DNA of 64,000 bases. Origin: Nitrosomonas sp. (GTDB lineage Bacteria > Pseudomonadota > Gammaproteobacteria > Burkholderiales > Nitrosomonadaceae). Numbering within the stretch: position 1 is the stretch's first letter; each line of letters begins with the position of its first letter. Below the pieces are notes generated by a model, which made no database searches, was not told the origin of the DNA, and saw nothing but the letters and a program-made list of their open reading frames with translations. The DNA lies in contig JAGNZK010000001.1 in assembly GCA_017984435.1 (NCBI GenBank), positions 1 through 64,000 of the forward strand. The letters are read 5' to 3'. Positions 34,349 to 45,440 of this stretch are shown here, piece by piece. The translations under genes and the position numbers were made by a program.

Positions 34349-34727
34349 CCGATTAAATCAATTTGTAGCATACCGAATTTTTATTACCAAGGGATGAATC
34401 TTTTATAGCATGACACATTCCGTGAGATTAAAGCTGAGAAAAACTGAGCCTTGAAAAACAATGATTAGTAAAAGAGGTCTTAAGTACTTCTATTTGCTCA
34501 ATACATCCTACTACAGCTTTTTATAATAATATGGCTTGACGCTTGATGCAGTCATGGAATCTTCCGAAGACTCATCACCCATCCAGCGGCATAAAGAATT
34601 TCATTGCTCAACAGAATCTATCTGAAGCCTCTGATTATTAACTTAATCGATACTTTCTTAACGGGTCCAGCCATGTAAACATCTGAATCATGACTGGTTG
34701 ATCAGAAACTCATCGGGAAACAATACA
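34349..34727. other. 379-base intergenic region upstream of the multicopper oxidase
   Basis: AT-rich sequence between divergent genes. Apart from the Shine-Dalgarno-like GGGAAA before the oxidase start, no clear promoter or operator was identified. No small gene is supported. Confidence 0.4.
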
Positions 34728-36668
34728 ATGAAAAAAAACAACCATCGACTCCATATTATACAATTCATATATTTTGCTATTCTTGTCGCAATGATTGCAC
34801 TAACCAATGTGCCGACTCACGCAGCACCATTGCAAATGCCTGTATCAGCCAGTTCTGGCTCCACTAAAGCGTTAAGCGTTCATTTGGATGTTCAATCCGC
34901 CACTTACACGTTGCTGGGTCCTTCGCCGACTGCCCAGAGCGGACCCAGTGAAAATCCGGCAGTAACAGCGCGTGGCGTAAAACTTACCCATAGCAAGCCA
35001 GCTGCAACTTCACCATCGGCTGAACATTTACTCGTTGGCCCAACGTTACGCATTCGCCCTGGGGATAAACTGGATATTCTTTTCAGAAATAGCCTCAGCT
35101 ATGAAGAACCGGCCGGCGATGGCAGTCATAGCACCACCAATCCGCACGGATTTGATGTGCTTAATCTGCATACCCATGGTTTGCATGTTTCACCCAAGAG
35201 CCCAAGCGACAATGTCTTATTGAATATCTTTCCGAAAAAAACACTTCAAAAACCATTAAAGGAATGCTTTTCTGAATTCGGCAAAGAAAATTGCGTGACG
35301 GAGAAATACGCTTACGCTTATAAAATTCCCGCCAATCATCCTTCGGGAACCTACTGGTATCATGCGCACAAACACGGTGCTGTCGCGATGCATTTAGCCG
35401 ATGGCATTGCCGGTGCCCTGATCATTGAAGATCCGGTGAATGGTCTGGAAAGTTTGCCAGCCGTCCAAGCAGCACACGAGCAAATTATCCTGTTGCAGGA
35501 AATCGCCTATGGCGGCAAATATCCGGACGGCACCGGTTCAGGTACTCCGAAAGATCCCTATCGCATTGACTGCATGAGCGTATACGGCAATCCAAAGGGT
35601 TGCGCATTTGGCGGAAAAACACCGGCTGCGCCTGGCGTCACCAATAACGCTTTATCCGTCAATGGCCAGTTCCAACCATCGATCACGATGTCAACCGATG
35701 AAGCCCAGCTTTGGCGGGTCATTAATGGCAGTATCGGCAATGTCGTACCAATGTGTCTGGTGCCTGTCAGCAGTCAAAATAATACAGCGGCAACCGCAAC
35801 CCCAGCTGTTTATGTTCTGGCGGCAGATGGCATTCCCATACAAAACCCTAACGCCGGGAAAAATGATCCGCCGATACTTCTGGCTAACCCGGTGGTCAGT
35901 CCCACCGATGGCACCGGTCTCCTGAACAATGAACTGCTATTCCTGGCCGCAGGGCAACGATTGGATTTAATGGTACAAGCACCGTCTACGCCGGGCATTT
36001 ACGCTTTATATGATAGCGTTGACCAGTCCGGCAATGCTATTCCCACGAATCAATTATGCCAGGCAACAACTTACGCGCAGCAAACCCCGATTCTGACCAT
36101 ATCCGTTCAAGCCAGCGCGAATGAAATCGCCTACAATACCGCAATACCGACGCAACAAGCGCTGAACCAATTAACAACGCCAACAACCATCACCGCGGCT
36201 GAAAGCCCGGAACTGCCCACCCAAGGCGCTGTTTTTGGTTTCACCAATCATGAATTCGCCCCGATCGATGGTGGCGCATCGGTCATCAATGCCAGAGTTT
36301 TCAATCCCATCCGCAGCCAACGCGACCTTGCGTTGAAGCAAGTCGATTTATGGTCAGCACAAAGCGCCGTGGGCACGCACATGTTCCATATCCATATCAA
36401 TTCATTCCAATTGGTCTCGCGCGGACCAGTGAACTACCCGTTCCCGATCTGGCGCGACACCTTGCTGGTAGAAACGCAATCCGATAAAGAGGGTAATGCA
36501 AAAATCGGTGAAATCGTGCAATTCCTGCAAAAACCGCTGGACTACACCGGCGCACTGGTCATGCACTGTCATAATGTCGCGCACGAAGATAATGGCATGA
36601 TGGAATTGGTCAATATTCTATCGACTTCCAGTAGTCATAAACCTGCGCACAAGAAACATACGCAATAG
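34728..36668 (+). CDS. Multicopper oxidase, exported
   Basis: The protein has 646 residues from the ATG at 34728, which follows GGGAAA. A signal peptide is visible (hydrophobic about 11-32, likely cleavage after THA). Copper-binding motifs appear in order: LHTHGLHV (HxH), YWYHAHKHG (HxH), HMFHIHINSF, and the C-terminal MHCHNVAHEDNGMMELV, which supplies type 1 and trinuclear ligands including the Cys and the axial Met. It is a three-domain laccase/CueO-like enzyme acting in the periplasm. The substrate (metal ions, phenolics or other) cannot be read from the sequence. A long hairpin follows the stop. Confidence 0.93.
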   Translation: MKKNNHRLHIIQFIYFAILVAMIALTNVPTHAAPLQMPVSASSGSTKALSVHLDVQSATYTLLGPSPTAQSGPSENPAVTARGVKLTHSKPAATSPSAEHLLVGPTLRIRPGDKLDILFRNSLSYEEPAGDGSHSTTNPHGFDVLNLHTHGLHVSPKSPSDNVLLNIFPKKTLQKPLKECFSEFGKENCVTEKYAYAYKIPANHPSGTYWYHAHKHGAVAMHLADGIAGALIIEDPVNGLESLPAVQAAHEQIILLQEIAYGGKYPDGTGSGTPKDPYRIDCMSVYGNPKGCAFGGKTPAAPGVTNNALSVNGQFQPSITMSTDEAQLWRVINGSIGNVVPMCLVPVSSQNNTAATATPAVYVLAADGIPIQNPNAGKNDPPILLANPVVSPTDGTGLLNNELLFLAAGQRLDLMVQAPSTPGIYALYDSVDQSGNAIPTNQLCQATTYAQQTPILTISVQASANEIAYNTAIPTQQALNQLTTPTTITAAESPELPTQGAVFGFTNHEFAPIDGGASVINARVFNPIRSQRDLALKQVDLWSAQSAVGTHMFHIHINSFQLVSRGPVNYPFPIWRDTLLVETQSDKEGNAKIGEIVQFLQKPLDYTGALVMHCHNVAHEDNGMMELVNILSTSSSHKPAHKKHTQ

Positions 36669-36687: not shown

Positions 36688-36731
36688 GAAAGCGGCTCAG
36701 GTTCGTAGGAAAAAGAATCTGAGCCACTTTC
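36688..36731 (+). terminator. Long hairpin downstream of the multicopper oxidase
   Basis: GAAAG plus GGCTCAGGTTC (36688-36704) pairs with GAATCTGAGCC plus CTTTC (36715-36731), with one G-T wobble and one mismatch, around a 10-base loop. A pure U-tract is missing, so termination may be partial. The hairpin separates the oxidase from the convergent hicA gene. Confidence 0.6.
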
Positions 36732-36763
36732 TATTCAGGAAGGAAACACCGATCCATATTCAA

Positions 36764-37006
36764 TTACTTTTTCAAAGCAGCGTAAAACTCTTTTTTGCTG
36801 ACACCGGCTTGTTTATGCATCGAACTGATCAAATCTGGACTAAAAGGCGACTTTGGGCAATCCACAGTAACTTTGAATAACCTCCCGTTTTCCTTCTTCA
36901 CCCATTGTTCGTGGGAGGTTGATGTTCTGGGCCGCGGTTCAAATCCCAATGTTTTGAGGATTTGTTTGACTTCCTTGCAGGTTAGTTGCGGATATATCCC
37001 GCTCAT
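36764..37006 (-). CDS. hicA: HicA-family toxin
   Basis: The 80-residue basic protein has the HicA fold pattern: LTCKEVKQILKTLGFEPRPR, then TSHEQWVKKENGRLFKVTVDC with the conserved His expected for mRNA cleavage, and a C-terminal ISSMHKQAGVSKKEFYAALKK. HicA toxins are double-stranded-RNA-binding-domain ribonucleases that act on mRNA. Its ATG overlaps the stop of the upstream hicB-like gene (37003-37006), so it is translationally coupled to it. It is the last gene of the six-gene minus-strand block. Confidence 0.85.
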   Translation of the reverse strand: MSGIYPQLTCKEVKQILKTLGFEPRPRTSTSHEQWVKKENGRLFKVTVDCPKSPFSPDLISSMHKQAGVSKKEFYAALKK

Positions 37007-37341
37007 TCGTGTATGTAATTTTGTGGAACCAAAGCTTGTGGAATTTTAAACAGCTTATGGAATTCGTTTTTGAATGCACCAACCCGGTATAACAAAACAT
37101 AGCAATAATAAGTCGCGATTTGCTTGAAAGGCGCTTTGCGCTGCAATAATTGCTCAGCATACTCCTTGTCTTCACCGACAAGTGCGTCGTAAAGATATTC
37201 CTGAATCATATCAGACAGTTTTGCTTTGACTTCCTCATAACTTTCCCCTTGCGCCGCGAGACCGAAGTCAATACAGAATGCCTGCCATTGATCGCCGTAT
37301 TTGTTGGCATAACACCGCAATAACAATTCTCTTGGTTTCAT
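37003..37341 (-). CDS. hicB: HicB-like antitoxin
   Basis: The protein is 112 residues when started at the ATG at 37341, which has AAGGA 7-8 bases upstream. The frame extends up to 37434 but without a better ribosome site. The N-terminal half resembles the partial RNase H fold of HicB (LLLRCYANKYGDQWQAFCID then FGLAAQGESYEEVKAKL). The C-terminal half, YYCYVLLYRVGAFKNEFHKL onward, is not a recognisable ribbon-helix-helix or HTH domain, so how it binds DNA, if it does, is unclear. The order (antitoxin before toxin, 4-base overlap) is the reverse of the classic hicAB order but common in some subgroups. Confidence 0.75.
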   Translation of the reverse strand: MKPRELLLRCYANKYGDQWQAFCIDFGLAAQGESYEEVKAKLSDMIQEYLYDALVGEDKEYAEQLLQRKAPFKQIATYYCYVLLYRVGAFKNEFHKLFKIPQALVPQNYIHE

Positions 37342-37434
37342 GAGTTTTTCCTTATGCTTATTTATTTCTTTTTTGCTGTAATAAATTTCTTTTGATATAT
37401 CAGGTTTATGAGTGACTGGTGTAATTACCGGCAT

Positions 37435-37887
37435 TCATAATAATGATATTGAGTTTACTCCATACCGTCTGGTTACATGATCGGAGACTGATAATGCAGA
37501 GAAAATTTTTTCTATCACCTCCTCAAGCGATTGCTTTATCTCGTGTTCCCATATCCGTATGACGCGCCAACCATTTTGTTCAAGTAATACATTTACTTCG
37601 TGATCACGCTCAACATTTCTTGCAATCTTGTTTTTCCAGAATAACTTGTTTGTTTCCGGCAGTGAACCATGTTCGGGGCAACTATGCCAAAAACATCCAT
37701 CGACAAAAATTACAATCTTGTAACAAGACAAAACGATATCCGGCTTTCCAGGCAGCTCTGATTTCAGCCGGTATCGCAATCCTTTATGCCAAAGCGCTTT
37801 TCTAAGTAGCAACTCCGGTTTTGTATTACTACCACGAACTGAAGACATGCATCTTCGTCTTTGTTCAGGCGTAAGGACATCGGGCAT
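37435..37887 (-). CDS. vsr: Vsr-family very-short-patch DNA endonuclease
   Basis: The 150-residue protein has all Vsr landmarks: TPEQRRRCMSSVRGSNTKPE at the start, KGLRYRLKSELPGKPDIV with the catalytic Asp, VIFVDGCFWHSCPEHG with the zinc and catalytic His residues, and GWRVIRIWEHEI. Classical Vsr nicks next to T:G mismatches that arise when 5-methylcytosine deaminates, protecting the sites of the partner methyltransferase. It sits three genes downstream of a C5 methyltransferase. In loci with a GHKL ATPase, Vsr-like proteins have also been proposed as the restriction nuclease. Length and motifs look intact. Confidence 0.93.
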   Translation of the reverse strand: MPDVLTPEQRRRCMSSVRGSNTKPELLLRKALWHKGLRYRLKSELPGKPDIVLSCYKIVIFVDGCFWHSCPEHGSLPETNKLFWKNKIARNVERDHEVNVLLEQNGWRVIRIWEHEIKQSLEEVIEKIFSALSVSDHVTRRYGVNSISLL

Positions 37888-37896
37888 CGCGACAAC

Positions 37897-39579
37897 CTAT
37901 TTCTTGGTGTCCAGACGCCTTAACCATTCGGATTCCGTTAGCCCGACGCGCGATAACTCTCTTGCATATCTTTCAACGGCTCGCTGTGCATGCGATGTTT
38001 TCAATTGATCAAGCCAAAGATACCTGCGATTGTTTGTATCGAAGAAAACTCCCTGATTGTTATCCGATAGTTTTGGTAGTACTACTTGCTTTTTATTAGA
38101 TTCCGGCAGGAATTCAGAAACATAGCATTTAAATGATTTTGGCTGATACAAAAGCTCTTTTGGTTTATTTTCTGATAAAAGAAGAACATGTGATGCTTTA
38201 TTTTTTCCATCCTGCTGCATCTCATCCAACTCAACAAATAAGAATTTCCGTGGACCTTCTAATCTGACACTATCGCATACCGGCTGAAGACAAAGTAAAT
38301 ATACTGAATTTTCTAAACATACTATTGTTCCCAACTTTAAATCTCTTTGATGTTTACCGTAAAAGGTTCTACTGCTCATTAGACGTGAAAATTCATGGTT
38401 AGAAATGGAGTCTTCATTTGTTAACAGAATGCTTGATATCTCGCGTATCTTTTTACGATCTTCATTCCATTCCCCTTTCTTAATTGCTTGAGTAATTAAG
38501 CTCACACTATGATCATTTCCCATTCCCTTCCCTTTTAAGCAGAAATCAATGGCGATTTTGACTTGTTGATCAGCATTCTTTCCGAGTAATCCCGGAATAT
38601 GCGGGCCGGACTCCCACTCATTCTTACACCAATCTTTAATTAGCGCATCGCTTATTAAAGGCTTTGGTAAACTATCCTCCAATACCGCTTCGATTTCTGA
38701 TATTAGAAGAGGCACCAGATGATTAACTGCATCTTCATCCGGTAAAGACATAGCTCTGTGTGTGAGAAAAGCGGGATCCAGTGAAGAATTGAATTTTGAC
38801 AAAATCTTGCGGCTATTTTTTTTGATTTCAGCTAATCCCAGCAACGTCGCAGCATGAAGTAACCCAGAAGCTAATTTTGTAAACTCCTCAATCGCCTTAT
38901 CAGCCAATTCTTCTTCTACTACTTCATATTTCTTATATTGATCTGGTCTTTTTCCATTCTCCTTTCCCAAAATAGAAACCCTGCTGTTTAATGTATGGAA
39001 TGCAAGACCATCATTTTCCACCGATAAATTTCTTTCTCCGAGGTTTTTACATATTTTCTCGTAAAGCTGCTCTCCTATACCACGAAGATCGACTTGATCT
39101 GTGTACACAAGTATCAAACGCAATTGTTCCGGAGTATCAGTTACAGCCCGTTGTATTAACTCGCCAACAAGTTCTAATGCTTTTGTTCCAGCATCTCCAT
39201 ATAAATCCCAATCCACTATCACTATATCTGCTGCCATACAAAGTGAGAAAACACCTGATCTTTCAGAAAACTCTGCTCTCTTCTCTGGCTGATAAAGCGA
39301 GCAAATTATCTGTTTCTTTGCAAAACTGGTAGCAATCTTGCGGGGTGAGTATTCTTCTGAATCGCTTTCTTCAATGCTTCCATCAACTTCGTTAGAAATC
39401 TTCTGATCTGCGCTTTTTAAAGCTTTTGGACGCCCCTTGGGCATGGATGCTTGCTTAGGTTCCGAGATCGATCCACTTTTCCGATCATAGATTCGATCAT
39501 CAATAAAAACCGCTGTTTGCAAAAACTCCTGTGCGGCGTATTTTGAAAATTCGGATACGGTATTAGGAATTGTCATCAT
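37897..39579 (-). CDS. Receiver-like domain protein of a methyltransferase/GHKL ATPase locus
   Basis: The 560-residue protein begins with what reads as a response-regulator receiver fold split by an insertion of about 60 charged residues. AVFIDDRI supplies the acidic pair (D27/D28), ADIVIVDWDLYGDAG supplies the likely phospho-acceptor D123, and LRLILVYTDQ supplies the switch Thr region. The rest (about 240-560) is helical then beta-rich, with no recognised nuclease or DNA-binding motif; it may be an effector of a new type. It overlaps the upstream ATPase gene by 17 bases and is separated from vsr by only 9 bases. The receiver call is from motif order and is moderately sure. Confidence 0.7.
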   Translation of the reverse strand: MMTIPNTVSEFSKYAAQEFLQTAVFIDDRIYDRKSGSISEPKQASMPKGRPKALKSADQKISNEVDGSIEESDSEEYSPRKIATSFAKKQIICSLYQPEKRAEFSERSGVFSLCMAADIVIVDWDLYGDAGTKALELVGELIQRAVTDTPEQLRLILVYTDQVDLRGIGEQLYEKICKNLGERNLSVENDGLAFHTLNSRVSILGKENGKRPDQYKKYEVVEEELADKAIEEFTKLASGLLHAATLLGLAEIKKNSRKILSKFNSSLDPAFLTHRAMSLPDEDAVNHLVPLLISEIEAVLEDSLPKPLISDALIKDWCKNEWESGPHIPGLLGKNADQQVKIAIDFCLKGKGMGNDHSVSLITQAIKKGEWNEDRKKIREISSILLTNEDSISNHEFSRLMSSRTFYGKHQRDLKLGTIVCLENSVYLLCLQPVCDSVRLEGPRKFLFVELDEMQQDGKNKASHVLLLSENKPKELLYQPKSFKCYVSEFLPESNKKQVVLPKLSDNNQGVFFDTNNRRYLWLDQLKTSHAQRAVERYARELSRVGLTESEWLRRLDTKK

Positions 39580-42532
39580 GATCAGGCCATTTAATCCTCA
39601 ATGTAGTGCCATTTTTATCTTCGGTAGGAACAACGGTAATATCCATTCCTTCCTTATTGAGTGCTTTCCTGGAAATATAGAGACCAAGACCGCGTCCGCC
39701 GGGTTTCCGGGTAAATCCCTGTTCGAAAATCGCTTCATAATCGCGCCTATGAATCGCCGGTCCATTATTCGAAATGAGAAATGCTCCTGCATCAGCATCC
39801 AAGTTGATTATTTTTTCACCCTCTTTATCCTTAAGCCAGAAAATAGCGTTATCCAGGATATTGACAAATACCGGGTAGACGGTTGAAGGAAAGCCTGTGA
39901 TCTCAGAATTAATAAAGCTCTCGCTTACATTTAATTGGATATCGTGCCTTTTTAATCGCACTTCAAAGAGGGTGCGGACATAATGGTTGATGTCGGAACC
40001 TTTTATCGGGATGGCTTTCCGATATAAGCGCCTTTGCAGCGGTGTAAACAGGTTTAAGTGCCCGTCAAGATGATCAAAATTGTTCCTGATTTCCTGATAG
40101 AGAACGGCAAGGCCATCATTCGAACTGGCCCATGGCCGAAGCTCCCGCAAGGATCTCCGAACACCTTTTATTGCAGCCTCGAATTCGTGATTGATCACGG
40201 CAACCGCCAATCCCAGTTGAACCAATTCGGCATCCGCGTCCGTTTGTTCCCTCAACCCTTGTAGTTCCTGATCCATCGCTTCAACCATGTCCGATTGCGC
40301 GATATCCACACCCTGTTCAAGATTTGACGATATCGCGGTAAGCATATCGCGCACCTTGCTTAATGTTTCGGTATTCTTTTTTCCCACGGACTCAATCCGA
40401 CCTTCAAAACTATTACGGATATGTTCAATTTCATCTTCCGAAAGCCCGGCCAAATCCTTTTGCGCAAATTCCACTTCCACATTGGATATCGTATCCTGCA
40501 ATTCATGAATTGCATCCCTAGCGAACCGCAATGCGGCTGACCGTGTATCATTTGCTGAATCTCTGAGCTGCCCGGCTTCCTGGTTAACGGATTTTTTCTC
40601 CGCATCCGCCTGTTGCTTGATCAATTCGCTCAAACGTTTCCGCTGATCAACATATAGTTTTGCTTCTTTGGCGACGGCGCCGAGTGACCTTGCAACCTCT
40701 TGACTGAACGGAACAAAAAATTCTTTTTCCAGTTTTTCCTGTTCGGCTAAATAGGCGTCCCAATCACGCTGCAATGTTCGGGATAAACCCACTCCTCGAG
40801 GTTTCACCAGACGGTAATTCTCACGTATTTCGGATAATCTGCGATTGGCTTCTTTCTCCGCATCAAGCAATGCCGTGGAAGCTTCATCAGGGTTCTTCAT
40901 TCTCGCTGCGGAATCCATCCGCTGCTTGATCATGCTACGCAAAGCCGCTAATTCCGTTTCCGGCAGACCATTCCCTGTTCGTTGGAAAAATCCTTCCAGT
41001 GAAGTTGCGATATTTCTTCGTTTTGTGGAAACCTGCTTCTCCCGTCTTCTGCGAGCCAGCTCCAGTCTTTCTAACTCCGCTCTACGGGAACTGAAGTATT
41101 CCGAATAATCGCCGCTCTCCCGGAAGAAATCCGCTGCCAATTGCAGGAATAAGTTTTCAAGAATATCTTTTAACTGCCTATATGCATTATCCTGCTGAAA
41201 GCCCTCCCGACCGGCTTTCTCTTTTAGGAATCTATTCTGCTCGCGTGTCAGTTTTACGGCTCCAAACATTCTTCGATGAGAAAAGAAATAATATGATGCG
41301 GACTTTGTTCGTCTTTCTTCTATGTTTAGCCAATCCACATCCGAATTACCATAGGGCAGTATACGTATGCGATCCCGGTACACATATACTCCTCCGATGC
41401 GATCAAGCTTGTCGGTGATGCGTTTCCATTCATCTGGCGGCAATCTGCTTTCACGCTGATTCCCTGCGATATAGCCGAACTCTATTTCAAAAGATCCGCA
41501 ATCAGTCGGTTTCCCGCCCCCGTTCTTCCATGAAATAACATGATTCTTAATTTCCTCCTCATAGATACGAACATTCCCTTGAAATTGACCGAATGCATCA
41601 ATCTGTCCATCGACCCTGTGGTCAACTGTATCCAGTTCATCGTGCGTAAAAAACTCCCTTTCACCGATTAAATCCTCTCCAGAAGCATCGGTCGGCCAAT
41701 ACCGGAAAGCGGTTTCTATTGGCGGCGGCGGAGATTCGCCAAACAGCGTATTTGAGAAACCGAGGAGAAACTTGGTAAAGTCTTTTGAGCCTGTTTGGCG
41801 CTCATTTTCTATTTCAGGCGCAATACCTTCATTGGCGGGAGCAATATAAAAATGGGTGCCGCAGCCATGATGTCGTAAACTTATTCCGTCCAGAAATTCA
41901 TCCATAGCCTGCGGATCCAGTTGAAAATCATCCAGATCACCCAGAATCTCGCGAAAAACCTGCTCTCCGTATTTTGAAGACAAACTGACAACGTTTTCCC
42001 TTAGTTTGCCTATCAATTCCTCGACATCTTCAGCGGTTGGCAGTCGGTCGCCTTGGATCAGCTTCATGGGTATTTCAATTTCATCCAGATTGAGCCCGGA
42101 TATTTCAAAAAGCTGCCAGTTAATAAAACACATGACCAATTCATGCATTTCCCCATGACGTTCGGCACGGGTAAGCACCAACACCTGACGGCCCAGCAAT
42201 GCAATAGCCAGACGACCGATACCTTTCTCGCCCATAATCGCACGTGCCGGTTTGCCGACAGGTTTATAGGTTTCAGCTTTCTTTCCCTGCGCAACATATT
42301 TACTTTCGGTACCCAGCACAAGCCATCGGTTTTCGAATTCATCCGGTGTCATGCCCACACCGTTATCTCTTATTACGAGTAAGTTGTCGGTTTTGAAATA
42401 ATCAACTTCGGCATGATCCGCGTATGCATCATGAGCATTTTTAAACAATTCGCTGATTGCGGTCGAGACATTGGCAATCTGCTGGCGACCCAACATATCC
42501 ACCGTTCTTGCTCTTGTCTTGAATTTGGCCAT
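39563..42532 (-). CDS. Large GHKL (MORC/MutL/Hsp90-like) ATPase with a C-terminal histidine-kinase-like module
   Basis: The 989-residue protein has two GHKL regions. The first, at the N-terminus, resembles MORC/MutL/Hsp90 ATPases: ISELFKNAHDAYADH (E28, N32), VIRDNGVGMTPDEF (D56), and GEKGIGRLAIALLG. A long charged coiled coil (about 480-760) follows. The C-terminal 210 residues look like a histidine kinase: VAVINHEFEAAIKGVRRSL with a candidate phospho-His near residue 782, VFVNILDNAIFWLKD (N box), ISNNGPAI in place of the usual DxGxG, and GGRGLGLYISRKAL (G2 box). The Asp-to-Asn change in the G1 box may weaken ATP binding. It starts 3 bases after the methyltransferase stop and overlaps the receiver-like gene. 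Confidence 0.85.
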   Translation of the reverse strand: MAKFKTRARTVDMLGRQQIANVSTAISELFKNAHDAYADHAEVDYFKTDNLLVIRDNGVGMTPDEFENRWLVLGTESKYVAQGKKAETYKPVGKPARAIMGEKGIGRLAIALLGRQVLVLTRAERHGEMHELVMCFINWQLFEISGLNLDEIEIPMKLIQGDRLPTAEDVEELIGKLRENVVSLSSKYGEQVFREILGDLDDFQLDPQAMDEFLDGISLRHHGCGTHFYIAPANEGIAPEIENERQTGSKDFTKFLLGFSNTLFGESPPPPIETAFRYWPTDASGEDLIGEREFFTHDELDTVDHRVDGQIDAFGQFQGNVRIYEEEIKNHVISWKNGGGKPTDCGSFEIEFGYIAGNQRESRLPPDEWKRITDKLDRIGGVYVYRDRIRILPYGNSDVDWLNIEERRTKSASYYFFSHRRMFGAVKLTREQNRFLKEKAGREGFQQDNAYRQLKDILENLFLQLAADFFRESGDYSEYFSSRRAELERLELARRRREKQVSTKRRNIATSLEGFFQRTGNGLPETELAALRSMIKQRMDSAARMKNPDEASTALLDAEKEANRRLSEIRENYRLVKPRGVGLSRTLQRDWDAYLAEQEKLEKEFFVPFSQEVARSLGAVAKEAKLYVDQRKRLSELIKQQADAEKKSVNQEAGQLRDSANDTRSAALRFARDAIHELQDTISNVEVEFAQKDLAGLSEDEIEHIRNSFEGRIESVGKKNTETLSKVRDMLTAISSNLEQGVDIAQSDMVEAMDQELQGLREQTDADAELVQLGLAVAVINHEFEAAIKGVRRSLRELRPWASSNDGLAVLYQEIRNNFDHLDGHLNLFTPLQRRLYRKAIPIKGSDINHYVRTLFEVRLKRHDIQLNVSESFINSEITGFPSTVYPVFVNILDNAIFWLKDKEGEKIINLDADAGAFLISNNGPAIHRRDYEAIFEQGFTRKPGGRGLGLYISRKALNKEGMDITVVPTEDKNGTTLRIKWPDHDDNS

Positions 42533-42535
42533 GTC

Positions 42536-43591
42536 TTATCGTTGATGCCGCTTCATGTGTTCCAAGATATGCCGCCCGAATACTTCCGCCAGTAAAACCG
42601 GTACTGCATTTCCTATTTGGCGGGCCTGCGAATTTAACGAGCCGTGGAAAATAAAATCATCTGGAAATGTTTGCAATGCAGCCGCTTCCCGCACACTGAT
42701 CGCCCGATGTTGCTCGGGGTGACCGAATCTTCCATTCGACAAACTGACACAGCGGGTAGTCAATCCTGTAGCCGGTTCATCCCATTTCATGCGACCATAT
42801 ACATCCGTGTGTCCGGTATAGCCGGTCCTGGTATGACATGCCAATCTCAATTCCGCTGGCCAATCGGCTCGTGAGCCTTCCGGTGGAGTGGTTATGATTC
42901 TCTGCAAATTAAGGGATGATAATCTTGCAGCACGATGATTGGGTACGGCTTTATGAATTTCACCAGCCTCTATCGCCGGCAAATGACTGATCCGGTTTCG
43001 TACCGTTTCATATGGAATTTCAGTACCCGGTCCATGAGTAGGTGCAGGCAAATCGATGTCCGCGTTTTTTGATGCCAGAAATACGAGTCTGCGGCGGCGC
43101 TGCGGCACACCGTAATTTTGAGATTCAACAATATCAATTACAGTTTTATACCCTAAATCCTCAAGATGCTTTCTAAAGCGAACCAAAATGCCATGTCCGG
43201 TGATACTTTGTATGCCTGGAACATTTTCCACAAATACATAATCAGGGGAAAATTTTTCTATAAGTTCACCAAATCTGGAGAGTAGCGTTCTTCTCGAATC
43301 GTTTTCCGAGTCCGGTTTTCTCGTGTTTTGCCGGGTAAATGGTTGACATGGTGCACATCCACAAAACAAAGTGGCATTTTGCTTTTTCTCATTGAATATC
43401 AGATTAAGCTCATTCTCATCAAACTTTGTTATATCGGAGTAACTGAAATAAACATCCGGGAAGTTTTTTTTGAATGTAGCGGCTGCATCAGGATCATGAT
43501 CTAGTGCAAATACCGGCCTGAGACCAGCATTTAGAAATCCTCTGCTGGTTCCACCACATCCTGAGAAAAAATCAAATACTTTTAATGACAT
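42536..43591 (-). CDS. DNA (cytosine-5) methyltransferase
   Basis: This 351-residue enzyme methylates cytosine at position 5 in a specific DNA sequence. Motif I is FDFFSGCGGTSRGFLNAG, motif IV is GCAPCQPFT with the catalytic Cys at residue 82, motif VI is FVENVPG (Glu 122), motif VIII is YGVPQRRRRLVFLAS, and motif X near the end is QIGNAVPVLLAEVFG. The target recognition region lies between about 190 and 290. The target sequence cannot be read from the protein. It is the first gene of the minus-strand block with GHKL ATPase, receiver-like protein, Vsr and HicBA. Confidence 0.96.
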   Translation of the reverse strand: MSLKVFDFFSGCGGTSRGFLNAGLRPVFALDHDPDAAATFKKNFPDVYFSYSDITKFDENELNLIFNEKKQNATLFCGCAPCQPFTRQNTRKPDSENDSRRTLLSRFGELIEKFSPDYVFVENVPGIQSITGHGILVRFRKHLEDLGYKTVIDIVESQNYGVPQRRRRLVFLASKNADIDLPAPTHGPGTEIPYETVRNRISHLPAIEAGEIHKAVPNHRAARLSSLNLQRIITTPPEGSRADWPAELRLACHTRTGYTGHTDVYGRMKWDEPATGLTTRCVSLSNGRFGHPEQHRAISVREAAALQTFPDDFIFHGSLNSQARQIGNAVPVLLAEVFGRHILEHMKRHQR

Positions 43592-43774
43592 CGATATATC
43601 TAACTGACATTAGAGCAAATCCATTTATTAAAGTTGAAGATTTCCAACCTGAATTAAATAGCTGCTTAGTTAATTATCCTTGTAATATGCTGTATTAATA
43701 TGTCCCTATTTTTTAATCTTCTTTCTAATTTAGAATATTTCACTTTATTCCGTTCCTGTTTCAGAAACTGCGAC

Positions 43775-44161
43775 CTAGTCATCAGTATTACTAGCATGCC
43801 TGGAAACATAAACATACCCGCCAATCGCGCCCATAATCACGCCTACCGGCGCGGCGATAAAAAGCCCGATCGTCAGTCCCTGGCTGGTGTCTTTGGCGAA
43901 AACCATAGGGCCTAGAAAACCAATGGTAAAACATAATCCACCCAGGATTAATGCACCACCGATAACTGCAACAGCCACATTTGTTTTCTCGCCGGCAACC
44001 AGTTTCCAGGTGAACCAAGCGGCCAGCAATGCACAAGCAAGTGAAAAAGCCGTGCTAAGCCATACAGGAAAACTGGTCGTGATCGTCAAAATAGTGCTGA
44101 TAAAAAACAATACCGTCAGAAACATTAACAGAGATACAATCGGTTTCAATACTTGAATCAT
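43775..44161 (-). CDS. Small membrane protein of unknown function
   Basis: The 128-residue protein has about four hydrophobic helices (around 8-28, 32-53, 62-85 and 98-120) with short polar loops and a polar C-terminus (RHASNTDD). The glycine-rich helices (AVIGGALILGGL, GVIMGAIGGYVYV) suggest close packing. No transporter signature is recognised. It stands alone between the methyltransferase and the PhoX-like gene. Confidence 0.65.
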   Translation of the reverse strand: MIQVLKPIVSLLMFLTVLFFISTILTITTSFPVWLSTAFSLACALLAAWFTWKLVAGEKTNVAVAVIGGALILGGLCFTIGFLGPMVFAKDTSQGLTIGLFIAAPVGVIMGAIGGYVYVSRHASNTDD

Positions 44162-44273
44162 TGTGAGGCGCTTCCATCAAATAGTGATTAAACAGCGCAA
44201 CATTGTAAACTATCTCTATCCGTAAAACCGTGAATCCATCGCATCGTTTTACTACATAAGGTCTATATTCAGA

Positions 44274-45440
44274 ATGAAGGTTGTTGACTTACGGCGGCGA
44301 AAATTATTGCAATACAGCTTCATAGGCATGGGTATTTTTTTTGGTAACACGTTGTTACCAAGTCCCATTAAGGCCGCATCCTTACCGCTAGCATCATTGG
44401 GCGAGCTGCTACCACCCGATCAGAACGGTGTGCGTTTGCCCGCGGGCTTTACTTCGCGCATCGTAGCGCGTTCAGGCCAAACGCTTTTTGGTTATCACTG
44501 GCATGCGGCGCCTGACGGCGGAGCAACCTTTGCTACACCTGACGGTGGCTGGATTTATGTTTCCAACAGTGAACTGAAAGACCGTGCAGGGGGTGTAGGT
44601 GCATTACGCTTCAATGCTCAGGGAGAAATTGTGGATGCCTATTCCATCTTAAAGCATACCAACCGTAATTGTGCCGGCGGACACACGCCCTGGCAGACGT
44701 GGTTATCGTGTGAGGAAATTGACAAAGGTCAGGTATGGGAATGCGATCCGTTTGGTCAGAAAACGGCACGTGTCAGAAATTCCCTGGGGTTATTCAGGCA
44801 CGAAGCGGTCGCCGTGGACACCGGCAACCAGCAGCTTTATCTGACCGAAGATGAGTCGGATGGCTGTTTGTATCGCTATACTGCCCGCACCTTCGATGCC
44901 TTAGGAAATCCCGACCTCGAGGACGGTTTTCTGGAGGTGGCCGAGGTCGTTGAAGGCCGTATTGGCACAGTGCGCTGGCATACCCTGCCCGATCCGCTGG
45001 CAACCAAGATATCGACGCGCAAACAGGTCATCAACAGCACCCAGTTTGATGGCGGGGAAGGCATTTGGTTTCACCAAGGCATCGTCTACTTCACAACCAA
45101 AGGCGATAACCGCGTGTGGGCGTATGATGTGCAGCAACATCGTCTTACCATTGTCTATAACGTCGCCTTATACCAACGACCTGTGTTAACCGGTGTCGAC
45201 AATATCATCGTCAATGCAGCGGGTGAATTGCTGATCGCTGAGGATGGTGGTGATATGCAGATCGTTGTACTGATCGCAGGTAAGGCTTTACCTTTGTTAC
45301 AAGTGATCGATCATGATCACTCGGAAATCACTGGTCCGGCTTTTAGTCCTGACGGCTCGCGTCTGTATTTCAGCTCGCAACGCGGCAAAACCGGAAACCC
45401 CGAAGATGGCGCAACTTTTGAAATAACCGGGCCATTCTGA
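44274..45440 (+). CDS. PhoX-family (DUF839) protein, Tat-exported
   Basis: The N-terminus has a twin-arginine-type signal (LRRRKLLQYSFIGMGIFFGN). The mature part belongs to the PhoX/DUF839 beta-propeller family: LPAGFTSRIVARSG, WIYVSNSELKDRAGGVGALRF, NCAGGHTPWQTWLSCEE, LFRHEAVAVD, LYLTEDESDGCLYRYT, and C-terminal LLIAEDGGDMQIVVL and GPAFSPDGSRLYFSSQRG. PhoX enzymes are calcium/iron phosphatases active without zinc. At 388 residues this is shorter than PhoX of Pseudomonas, so phosphatase activity is a likely rather than certain function. A MITE-like element follows the stop immediately. Confidence 0.87.
   Translation: MKVVDLRRRKLLQYSFIGMGIFFGNTLLPSPIKAASLPLASLGELLPPDQNGVRLPAGFTSRIVARSGQTLFGYHWHAAPDGGATFATPDGGWIYVSNSELKDRAGGVGALRFNAQGEIVDAYSILKHTNRNCAGGHTPWQTWLSCEEIDKGQVWECDPFGQKTARVRNSLGLFRHEAVAVDTGNQQLYLTEDESDGCLYRYTARTFDALGNPDLEDGFLEVAEVVEGRIGTVRWHTLPDPLATKISTRKQVINSTQFDGGEGIWFHQGIVYFTTKGDNRVWAYDVQQHRLTIVYNVALYQRPVLTGVDNIIVNAAGELLIAEDGGDMQIVVLIAGKALPLLQVIDHDHSEITGPAFSPDGSRLYFSSQRGKTGNPEDGATFEITGPF

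Follow-up and report, generated by a model that had tools for sequence, protein, structure and literature searches.

A DNA methyltransferase, MORC-like ATPase-kinase, and receiver gene block in Nitrosomonas as a candidate methylation-linked two-component module

Six open reading frames on the minus strand of a Nitrosomonas sp. contig (positions 36764-43591 of the window, i.e., the 64,000-nucleotide stretch of JAGNZK010000001.1 that was analyzed here) raise the question of which of them form a functional unit and what that unit would do for its host. The preliminary description took all six as one defense-like operon closed by a toxin-antitoxin pair. Its account of the layout up to vsr was exact, with a 3-base gap, a 17-base overlap, and a 9-base gap between successive genes, and its domain calls were recovered as Pfam families (DNA_methylase; HATPase_c_3, HEF_HK, and HATPase_c; Response_reg_2; Vsr; and HicA_toxin). 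The genes and the borders of their chromosomal site are as follows.

42536-43591, minus strand: C5 cytosine DNA methyltransferase (MTase), first core gene; 351 aa; PF00145 DNA_methylase, 198.5 bits
39563-42532, minus strand: predicted MORC-like GHKL ATPase with coiled coil and HEF_HK histidine kinase; 989 aa
37897-39579, minus strand: Response_reg_2 receiver protein; 560 aa; receiver at residues ~19-239, C-terminal part at residues ~240-560 without annotation
37435-37887, minus strand: Vsr-type very-short-patch repair endonuclease; 150 aa; PF03852, 99.3 bits; TIGR00632, 154.5 bits
37003-37341, minus strand, from the inner ATG (open reading frame 37003-37434): HicB-like partner gene, separate module; 112 aa
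36764-37006, minus strand: HicA-type toxin gene, separate module; 80 aa; PF07927 HicA_toxin, 32.0 bits (cut-off, 27)
34698-36668: multicopper oxidase gene, one hotspot border
43775-45440: small membrane protein (128 aa) and PhoX-like gene, other hotspot border

Gene content and domain architecture

Judged from its sequence, the unit at 37435-43591 is a four-gene core of C5 MTase, MORC-like ATPase/histidine kinase, receiver protein, and Vsr, with a GC content of 37-48%, below that of most flanking kilobases. The MTase also exceeds the cut-off of the NCBIfam model TIGR00675 (dcm), and the Vsr protein exceeds both of its curated cut-offs and matches the Vsr structure 1cw0 (E 6.7e-20). For the HicB-like gene, the inner ATG at 37341 is the probable start, in line with the start of its 90% identical relative in the Nitrosomonas genome G391; this start places it 93 bases from the end of vsr and gives a 4-base overlap with hicA, in agreement with the roughly 95 bases and the overlap initially reported.

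The 989-aa protein carries HATPase_c_3, HEF_HK, and HATPase_c, each above its Pfam cut-off, and its N-terminal GHKL ATPase motifs are intact and accompanied by a second alpha-beta domain. In the predicted model, which has MORC and histidine-kinase folds, the ATPase is followed by a long coiled coil (~449 to 770) and then by the kinase module. On these sequence and model grounds the ATPase is classed as MORC-like, either MORC proper or a paraMORC family, which bears out the MORC/MutL-like ATPase with a histidine-kinase module that had been proposed from the letters alone. The 560-aa protein, first called receiver-like, has a true receiver domain (PF19192 Response_reg_2, 129.8 bits; receiver fold predicted) with the acid pair D27/D28, phospho-Asp D123, T160, and K206 present. 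Conservation across the aligned loci covers both ATP sites, the histidine of the kinase, and the phospho-aspartate of the receiver; H782 of the kinase is found in 73/73 sequences, and the following E783 in 72/73, with D in the remaining one. The first ~115 residues of the ATPase-kinase weakly resemble BbrUII/HgiDII-type restriction enzymes (NCBIfam, 62 bits against a cut-off of 550; PADLOC, 35 bits), which is consistent with a shared GHKL domain. Residues 383-981 are spanned by PHROG 8137, a family of unknown function.

This gene set is not new. Although the pairing of kinase and receiver was initially presented as novel, the same gene set had been published by Bellieny-Rabelo, Pretorius, and Moleleki (2021; PMC8011034), who, in the available portion of their paper, predicted two-component-like HEF_HK/Response_reg_2 pairs with C5 methylases; the claim of novelty therefore fails. 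According to that portion, function is speculative, a phosphorelay is predicted, the commonest kinase architecture (174/222; group 1) is HATPase_c_3, HEF_HK, and HATPase_c, as in the window, and Vsr occurs in 20 genera, mostly directly downstream of the receiver gene. The window copy resembles the systems described there in its three kinase domains, the adjacent receiver of the same family, the C5 methylase upstream, the core His followed by Glu/Asp, and the receiver acid pair, phospho-Asp, Thr, and Lys, and differs from that description in its location in Nitrosomonas, beside hicBA, and in a hotspot. Added here to that text are fold predictions, counts of conserved residues and of chained genes, and the separation of hicBA from the unit.

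The ATPase has an earlier lineage of its own. Iyer, Abhiman, and Aravind (2008; PMC2292703), in the part of the paper at hand, tied MORC/paraMORC ATPases to restriction-modification (R-M) neighborhoods with cytosine methylases and Vsr. The window shares with those systems an N-terminal MORC-type GHKL ATPase adjoining a DNA cytosine methylase and Vsr; unlike them, its ATPase is joined to a histidine-kinase module by a coiled coil, and its family has neither an SFII helicase nor an RE-fold nuclease as a constant partner. Among the open PMC articles searched, HEF_HK turns up in two, the second being PMC10663231, and PF19192 in one. A term look-up in the available text of PMC9519451, PMC10853773, and PMC12839542 returned nothing on the HEF_HK/Response_reg_2 family. 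HATPase and REC appear among the figure abbreviations for predicted systems in PMC13092281 (2026), the accessible text of which does not tie them to this system. Among the open PMC articles listed by our searches, we found no experimental test of the family.

Conservation and distribution of the core

To place the core among its relatives, we assembled 105 loci (the window, L018, and L020-L122), in which genes were called by HMMs grown from the window proteins. A kinase-alignment search of bacterial and archaeal genomes contributed the best 80 of at least 476 relatives among 589 matched stretches, and 9 further loci on viral contigs were added by kinase similarity; since 89/105 loci were thus fetched through the kinase, the sample favors like copies. 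The preliminary description had proposed conserved co-occurrence of ATPase, 560-aa protein, C5 MTase, and Vsr as a check, and in this sample the kinase (105) is accompanied by the receiver in 101 loci, the MTase in 98, and Vsr in 59. Where more than 5 kb is available on each of the two sides of the kinase, the MTase is found in 52/52 loci and Vsr in 33/52, and in five of the seven MTase-less loci (L018, L042, L049, L050, and L079) the kinase lies at a contig end. Loci reached through the receiver family instead (L019-L033) contain the MTase in 14/15 cases, the exception (L023) having a receiver match under the curated cut-off.

The spacing of these genes is equally regular. Kinase and receiver genes are separated by a median of -4 bases (n = 98), with 95/98 falling within -300 to +50, and MTase and kinase genes by a median of -1 base (n = 91), with 82/91 at 100 bases or less. 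The gene arrangement is beyond chance, and the MTase, MORC-kinase, and receiver genes are a conserved block with operon-like spacing. Mantel correlations of distances (rho), in which the relatedness of the sequences overstates co-evolution, were 0.74 for kinase-receiver (87 loci), 0.55 for kinase-MTase (90), and 0.33 for kinase-Vsr (50), the order expected if the kinase-receiver pair is the heart of the system, with more frequent exchange of MTase and Vsr.

The distribution of the Response_reg_2 receiver is rare and patchy: it was found in 5/369 genomes of the class sample, 2/126 of the family, and 11/398 of the phylum sample, the window's own genome being counted each time. The nearest kinase among the relatives kept is that of Nitrosomonas sp. 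GRE_AOB_3 (93% identical). In this genome's 88% identical copy of the core (L034:12954-14891), the receiver gene is split over three frames and Vsr is shortened, while the MTase and kinase frames are full length; the damage is either natural decay or an assembly error. Kinase relatives also occur on nine IMG/VR viral contigs (L114-L122; L121 cut, L122 weak), seven of which have a receiver gene, so that prophage-like elements may carry the module; a search for relatives of the receiver protein gave one plasmid match and no phage match. Four copies lie on metagenome-assembled contigs titled Methanosarcinaceae, Methanoperedens, Methanosarcina, and Euryarchaeota (L047, L057, L059, and L076), and by these titles the two-component module may extend beyond bacteria.

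Candidate effectors and possible function

As initially noted, no standard restriction enzyme was recognized beside the core genes, and within the three-gene core of MTase, kinase, and receiver we recognized no nuclease or cognate restriction endonuclease. To see what else accompanies the core, we defined a chained gene as codirectional with a gap of at most 150 bases and judged 98 loci, 21 of which were excluded as too short (<600 bases on a side). Among the 77 loci with room, 36 have no chained gene besides Vsr (21 with Vsr in the locus, 15 with none), 26 have a downstream one (the window with hicBA included), and 15 have upstream ones only. A scan of 31 chained downstream genes, for which 25 of the 38 families were listed, gave HNH_2 (3), NOV_C (2), PDDEXK_7 (1), Mrr_cat (1), AAA_15/AAA_21 ATPases (3), and unrelated metabolic genes. 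An outside nuclease may therefore serve some copies, but no nuclease is a constant partner of the core. In three Bacteroidetes metagenome-assembled genomes (L101, L107, and L110), codirectional genes of 594-602 aa lie between the receiver gene and Vsr and are a possible lineage-specific extra effector.

Vsr, the receiver protein, and HicA had each been suggested as the effector, and of these the first and last do not hold as a general effector. Vsr is absent from 46/105 loci, some of them cut short, and from 19/52 of the roomier loci, and was rejected as an obligatory effector; in the 98 loci judged, it lies downstream in 20, upstream in 17, on the other strand in 12, and between core genes in 6, and is absent from 43. 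HicA is missing from 103/105 loci. A nuclease inside the ATPase-kinase was also considered and rejected, inspection of the predicted model by eye giving no nuclease-like stretch. With Vsr missing from so many roomy loci and no constant nuclease, the C-terminal part of the receiver protein would be the best candidate for output or effector, a guess made from sequence. Several of its polar residues are conserved: D268, C430, and C435 in 77/77 loci, D436 in 74/77, R439 in 76/77, and E551 in 73/77. Whole-protein searches gave no recurring family for this part (at best 2/77 members), and whole-protein model searches, dominated by the receiver, gave no convincing solved-structure match and no known fold. 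Residues 430-439, which lie in the beta domain of this putative output part, form a CxxxxCDxxR patch, with both cysteines invariant and D436 and R439 near-invariant.

In our preferred reading, to which we give about even odds, the genes at 37435-43591 make up a two-component module that is linked to DNA methylation, moves horizontally, and most likely defends the cell against foreign DNA. The GC content below that of most flanks and the kinase relatives on IMG/VR contigs were counted in its favor, as were the defense-type genes that relatives carry at the window's site (an AAA-TIR gene in G391 and a GmrSD_N-HNH gene in G422). We infer the sensing of methylation state, the direction of signaling, the identity of the effector, and the defense function, the sensing of unmethylated DNA from gene order and MORC biology. 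In such a scheme, (i) the MTase would mark the cell's own DNA; (ii) the MORC-like ATPase would form an ATP-dependent dimer that clamps or scans DNA with the help of the long coiled coil; (iii) DNA lacking the mark would alter the state or cycle of the ATPase and lead to autophosphorylation at H782; (iv) the phosphate would pass from H782 to D123 of the receiver protein; and (v) phosphorylation of D123 would free the C-terminal helical and beta domain, which would likely act as the effector or recruit one. Vsr would be an accessory that repairs T:G mismatches arising from deamination of methylated cytosines. A more specific form, which we put forward tentatively and consider doubtful, is a nuclease-free immune relay that discriminates by methylation, in which a MORC-type clamp reads unmethylated foreign DNA and His-Asp transfer engages a new effector domain (residues ~240-560) that silences or destroys the invader.

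Known systems share parts of this logic. Detocs is a two-component phage defense with kinase-to-receiver logic, in which a receiver buffers phosphate and the effector is a known enzyme; it has, to our knowledge, no methyltransferase and no MORC domain, and the kinase input differs from that of the window unit. The E. coli Dcm-Vsr arrangement, a C5 methylase adjoining the Vsr repair endonuclease, matches the window in these two neighbors, but we know of neither an ATPase-kinase nor a receiver in it. The Shedu protein VcSduA, experimentally tested in phage defense (PMC12137116), has a GHKL ATPase domain as the window protein does, but there a PD-(D/E)XK nuclease is fused to it, and the available text of that paper mentions neither a kinase module nor a receiver or methyltransferase as partner.

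The module could also be regulatory rather than defensive, the kinase-receiver pair acting as a transcriptional or activity switch of the MTase (epigenetic control or phase switching). Controlling genes is the usual role of receiver proteins. The MTase is the constant partner of the pair in all 52 loci with more than 5 kb on each of the two sides, and many loci lack a further chained gene, as would suit such a switch; control of R-M systems was raised as a speculation in the accessible part of PMC8011034. We nevertheless consider this explanation unlikely: the C-terminal part of the receiver protein shows no match to a recurring family of DNA-binding or any other type, defense-type genes occupy the variable position of the Nitrosomonas hotspot, and a MORC ATPase with a long coiled coil seems too elaborate for a simple switch.

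Similarly improbable, in our judgment, is an unusual Type II R-M system in which the C-terminal part of the receiver protein hides a nuclease that phosphorylation activates after recognition by the MORC-kinase. Such an enzyme would explain a core that often stands alone (36/77 loci) and the strictly conserved polar residues of this part (D268, C430, C435, D436, R439, and E551), but the whole-protein searches gave no nuclease family or fold, and the C..CD..R patch is unlike the PD-(D/E)XK, HNH, or GIY-YIG motifs.

The hicBA pair and the exchange hotspot

The HicB-like protein has no Pfam match at 0.001 and no HicB family match in Pfam, NCBIfam, or PADLOC, its sole match being PHROG 12841, of unknown function; its gene is paired and overlapping with hicA in the window, G391, G380, and G442. 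HMMs built from the single window HicA and HicB sequences matched the window alone among the 105 loci. As these may have been too narrow, a broad HicA HMM was built from three Nitrosomonas HicA seeds (recovering 17/20 Pfam HicA loci, and 19/20 after a rebuild). Applied to reading frames of at least 50 aa inside the fetched stretches, some of which are truncated at contig ends, it had two matches among the 105 loci: one of 87 bits in the window and one of 31 bits in L075, the latter on the opposite strand and upstream of the core. HicA occurs in 5/61 Nitrosomonas genomes, the window's own included, and the receiver in 2/126 genomes of the family, namely the window's own and G438; the other four HicA-bearing genomes therefore have no receiver match. 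Since Pfam HicA is frequent in host genomes at large (30/40), its mere presence in a genome means little.

At the chromosomal site, we compared the region corresponding to window positions 36700-43800 in L128, L192, L193, and L194. G391 aligns to 36708-37347 (hicBA, 86%) and resumes at 43807, with the AAA-TIR gene between, and other genes take the place of its oxidase side. Conversely, L034/G438 aligns to 37526-43603 (the core, 88%), with differing flanks and no hicBA found. At the same site, G422 has the GmrSD_N-HNH gene, G393 a 131-base stretch 70% like the end of hicA together with an unrelated small gene, and G409 one small frame. With these differing cassettes, the site between the multicopper oxidase gene and the membrane protein/PhoX-like genes is an exchange hotspot in Nitrosomonas, and the aligned DNA shows that the core and hicBA move apart.

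That all six genes form one unit, with HicA killing the cell upon failure of defense, is thus highly improbable: hicB does begin 93 bases past vsr on the same strand, and a pattern scan gave no minus-strand promoter-like site in the vsr-hicB gap (a scan that carries no weight, since it returned fewer promoter and terminator sites than shuffled sequences), but a HicA match lies close to the core in just two of the 105 loci (the window and L075), four HicA-bearing Nitrosomonas genomes of the 61 searched lack a receiver match, homology in G391, which has hicBA without the core, stops just upstream of hicB, and no hicBA was found with the 88% identical core of L034/G438. From the sequences compared, hicBA is an independent neighbor outside the core. 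The initial view that hicBA closes the unit is thereby withdrawn, and its proposed membership in the conserved block is already contradicted by the 103/105 loci without HicA and the aligned sites.

For the HEF_HK/Response_reg_2 family, this means that hicBA should not be counted within the system, and that the remaining interest lies in a putative phosphorelay driven by a MORC-like ATPase, tied to DNA methylation, and ending in an output domain that matches no recognized family. In Nitrosomonas, the hotspot between the multicopper oxidase and PhoX-like genes is a place to mine for further defense cassettes. The module bears on two matters, the action of MORC-type ATPases on DNA and the working of R-M-like systems with no visible nuclease. 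It offers a predicted soluble test system, with E28, H782, and D123 as mutable residues, that may couple a phosphorelay and ATP-driven clamping to the methylation state of DNA. If the tentative immune relay were true, bacteria would have their own version of the silencing of unwanted DNA by MORC proteins, placed under a two-component switch.
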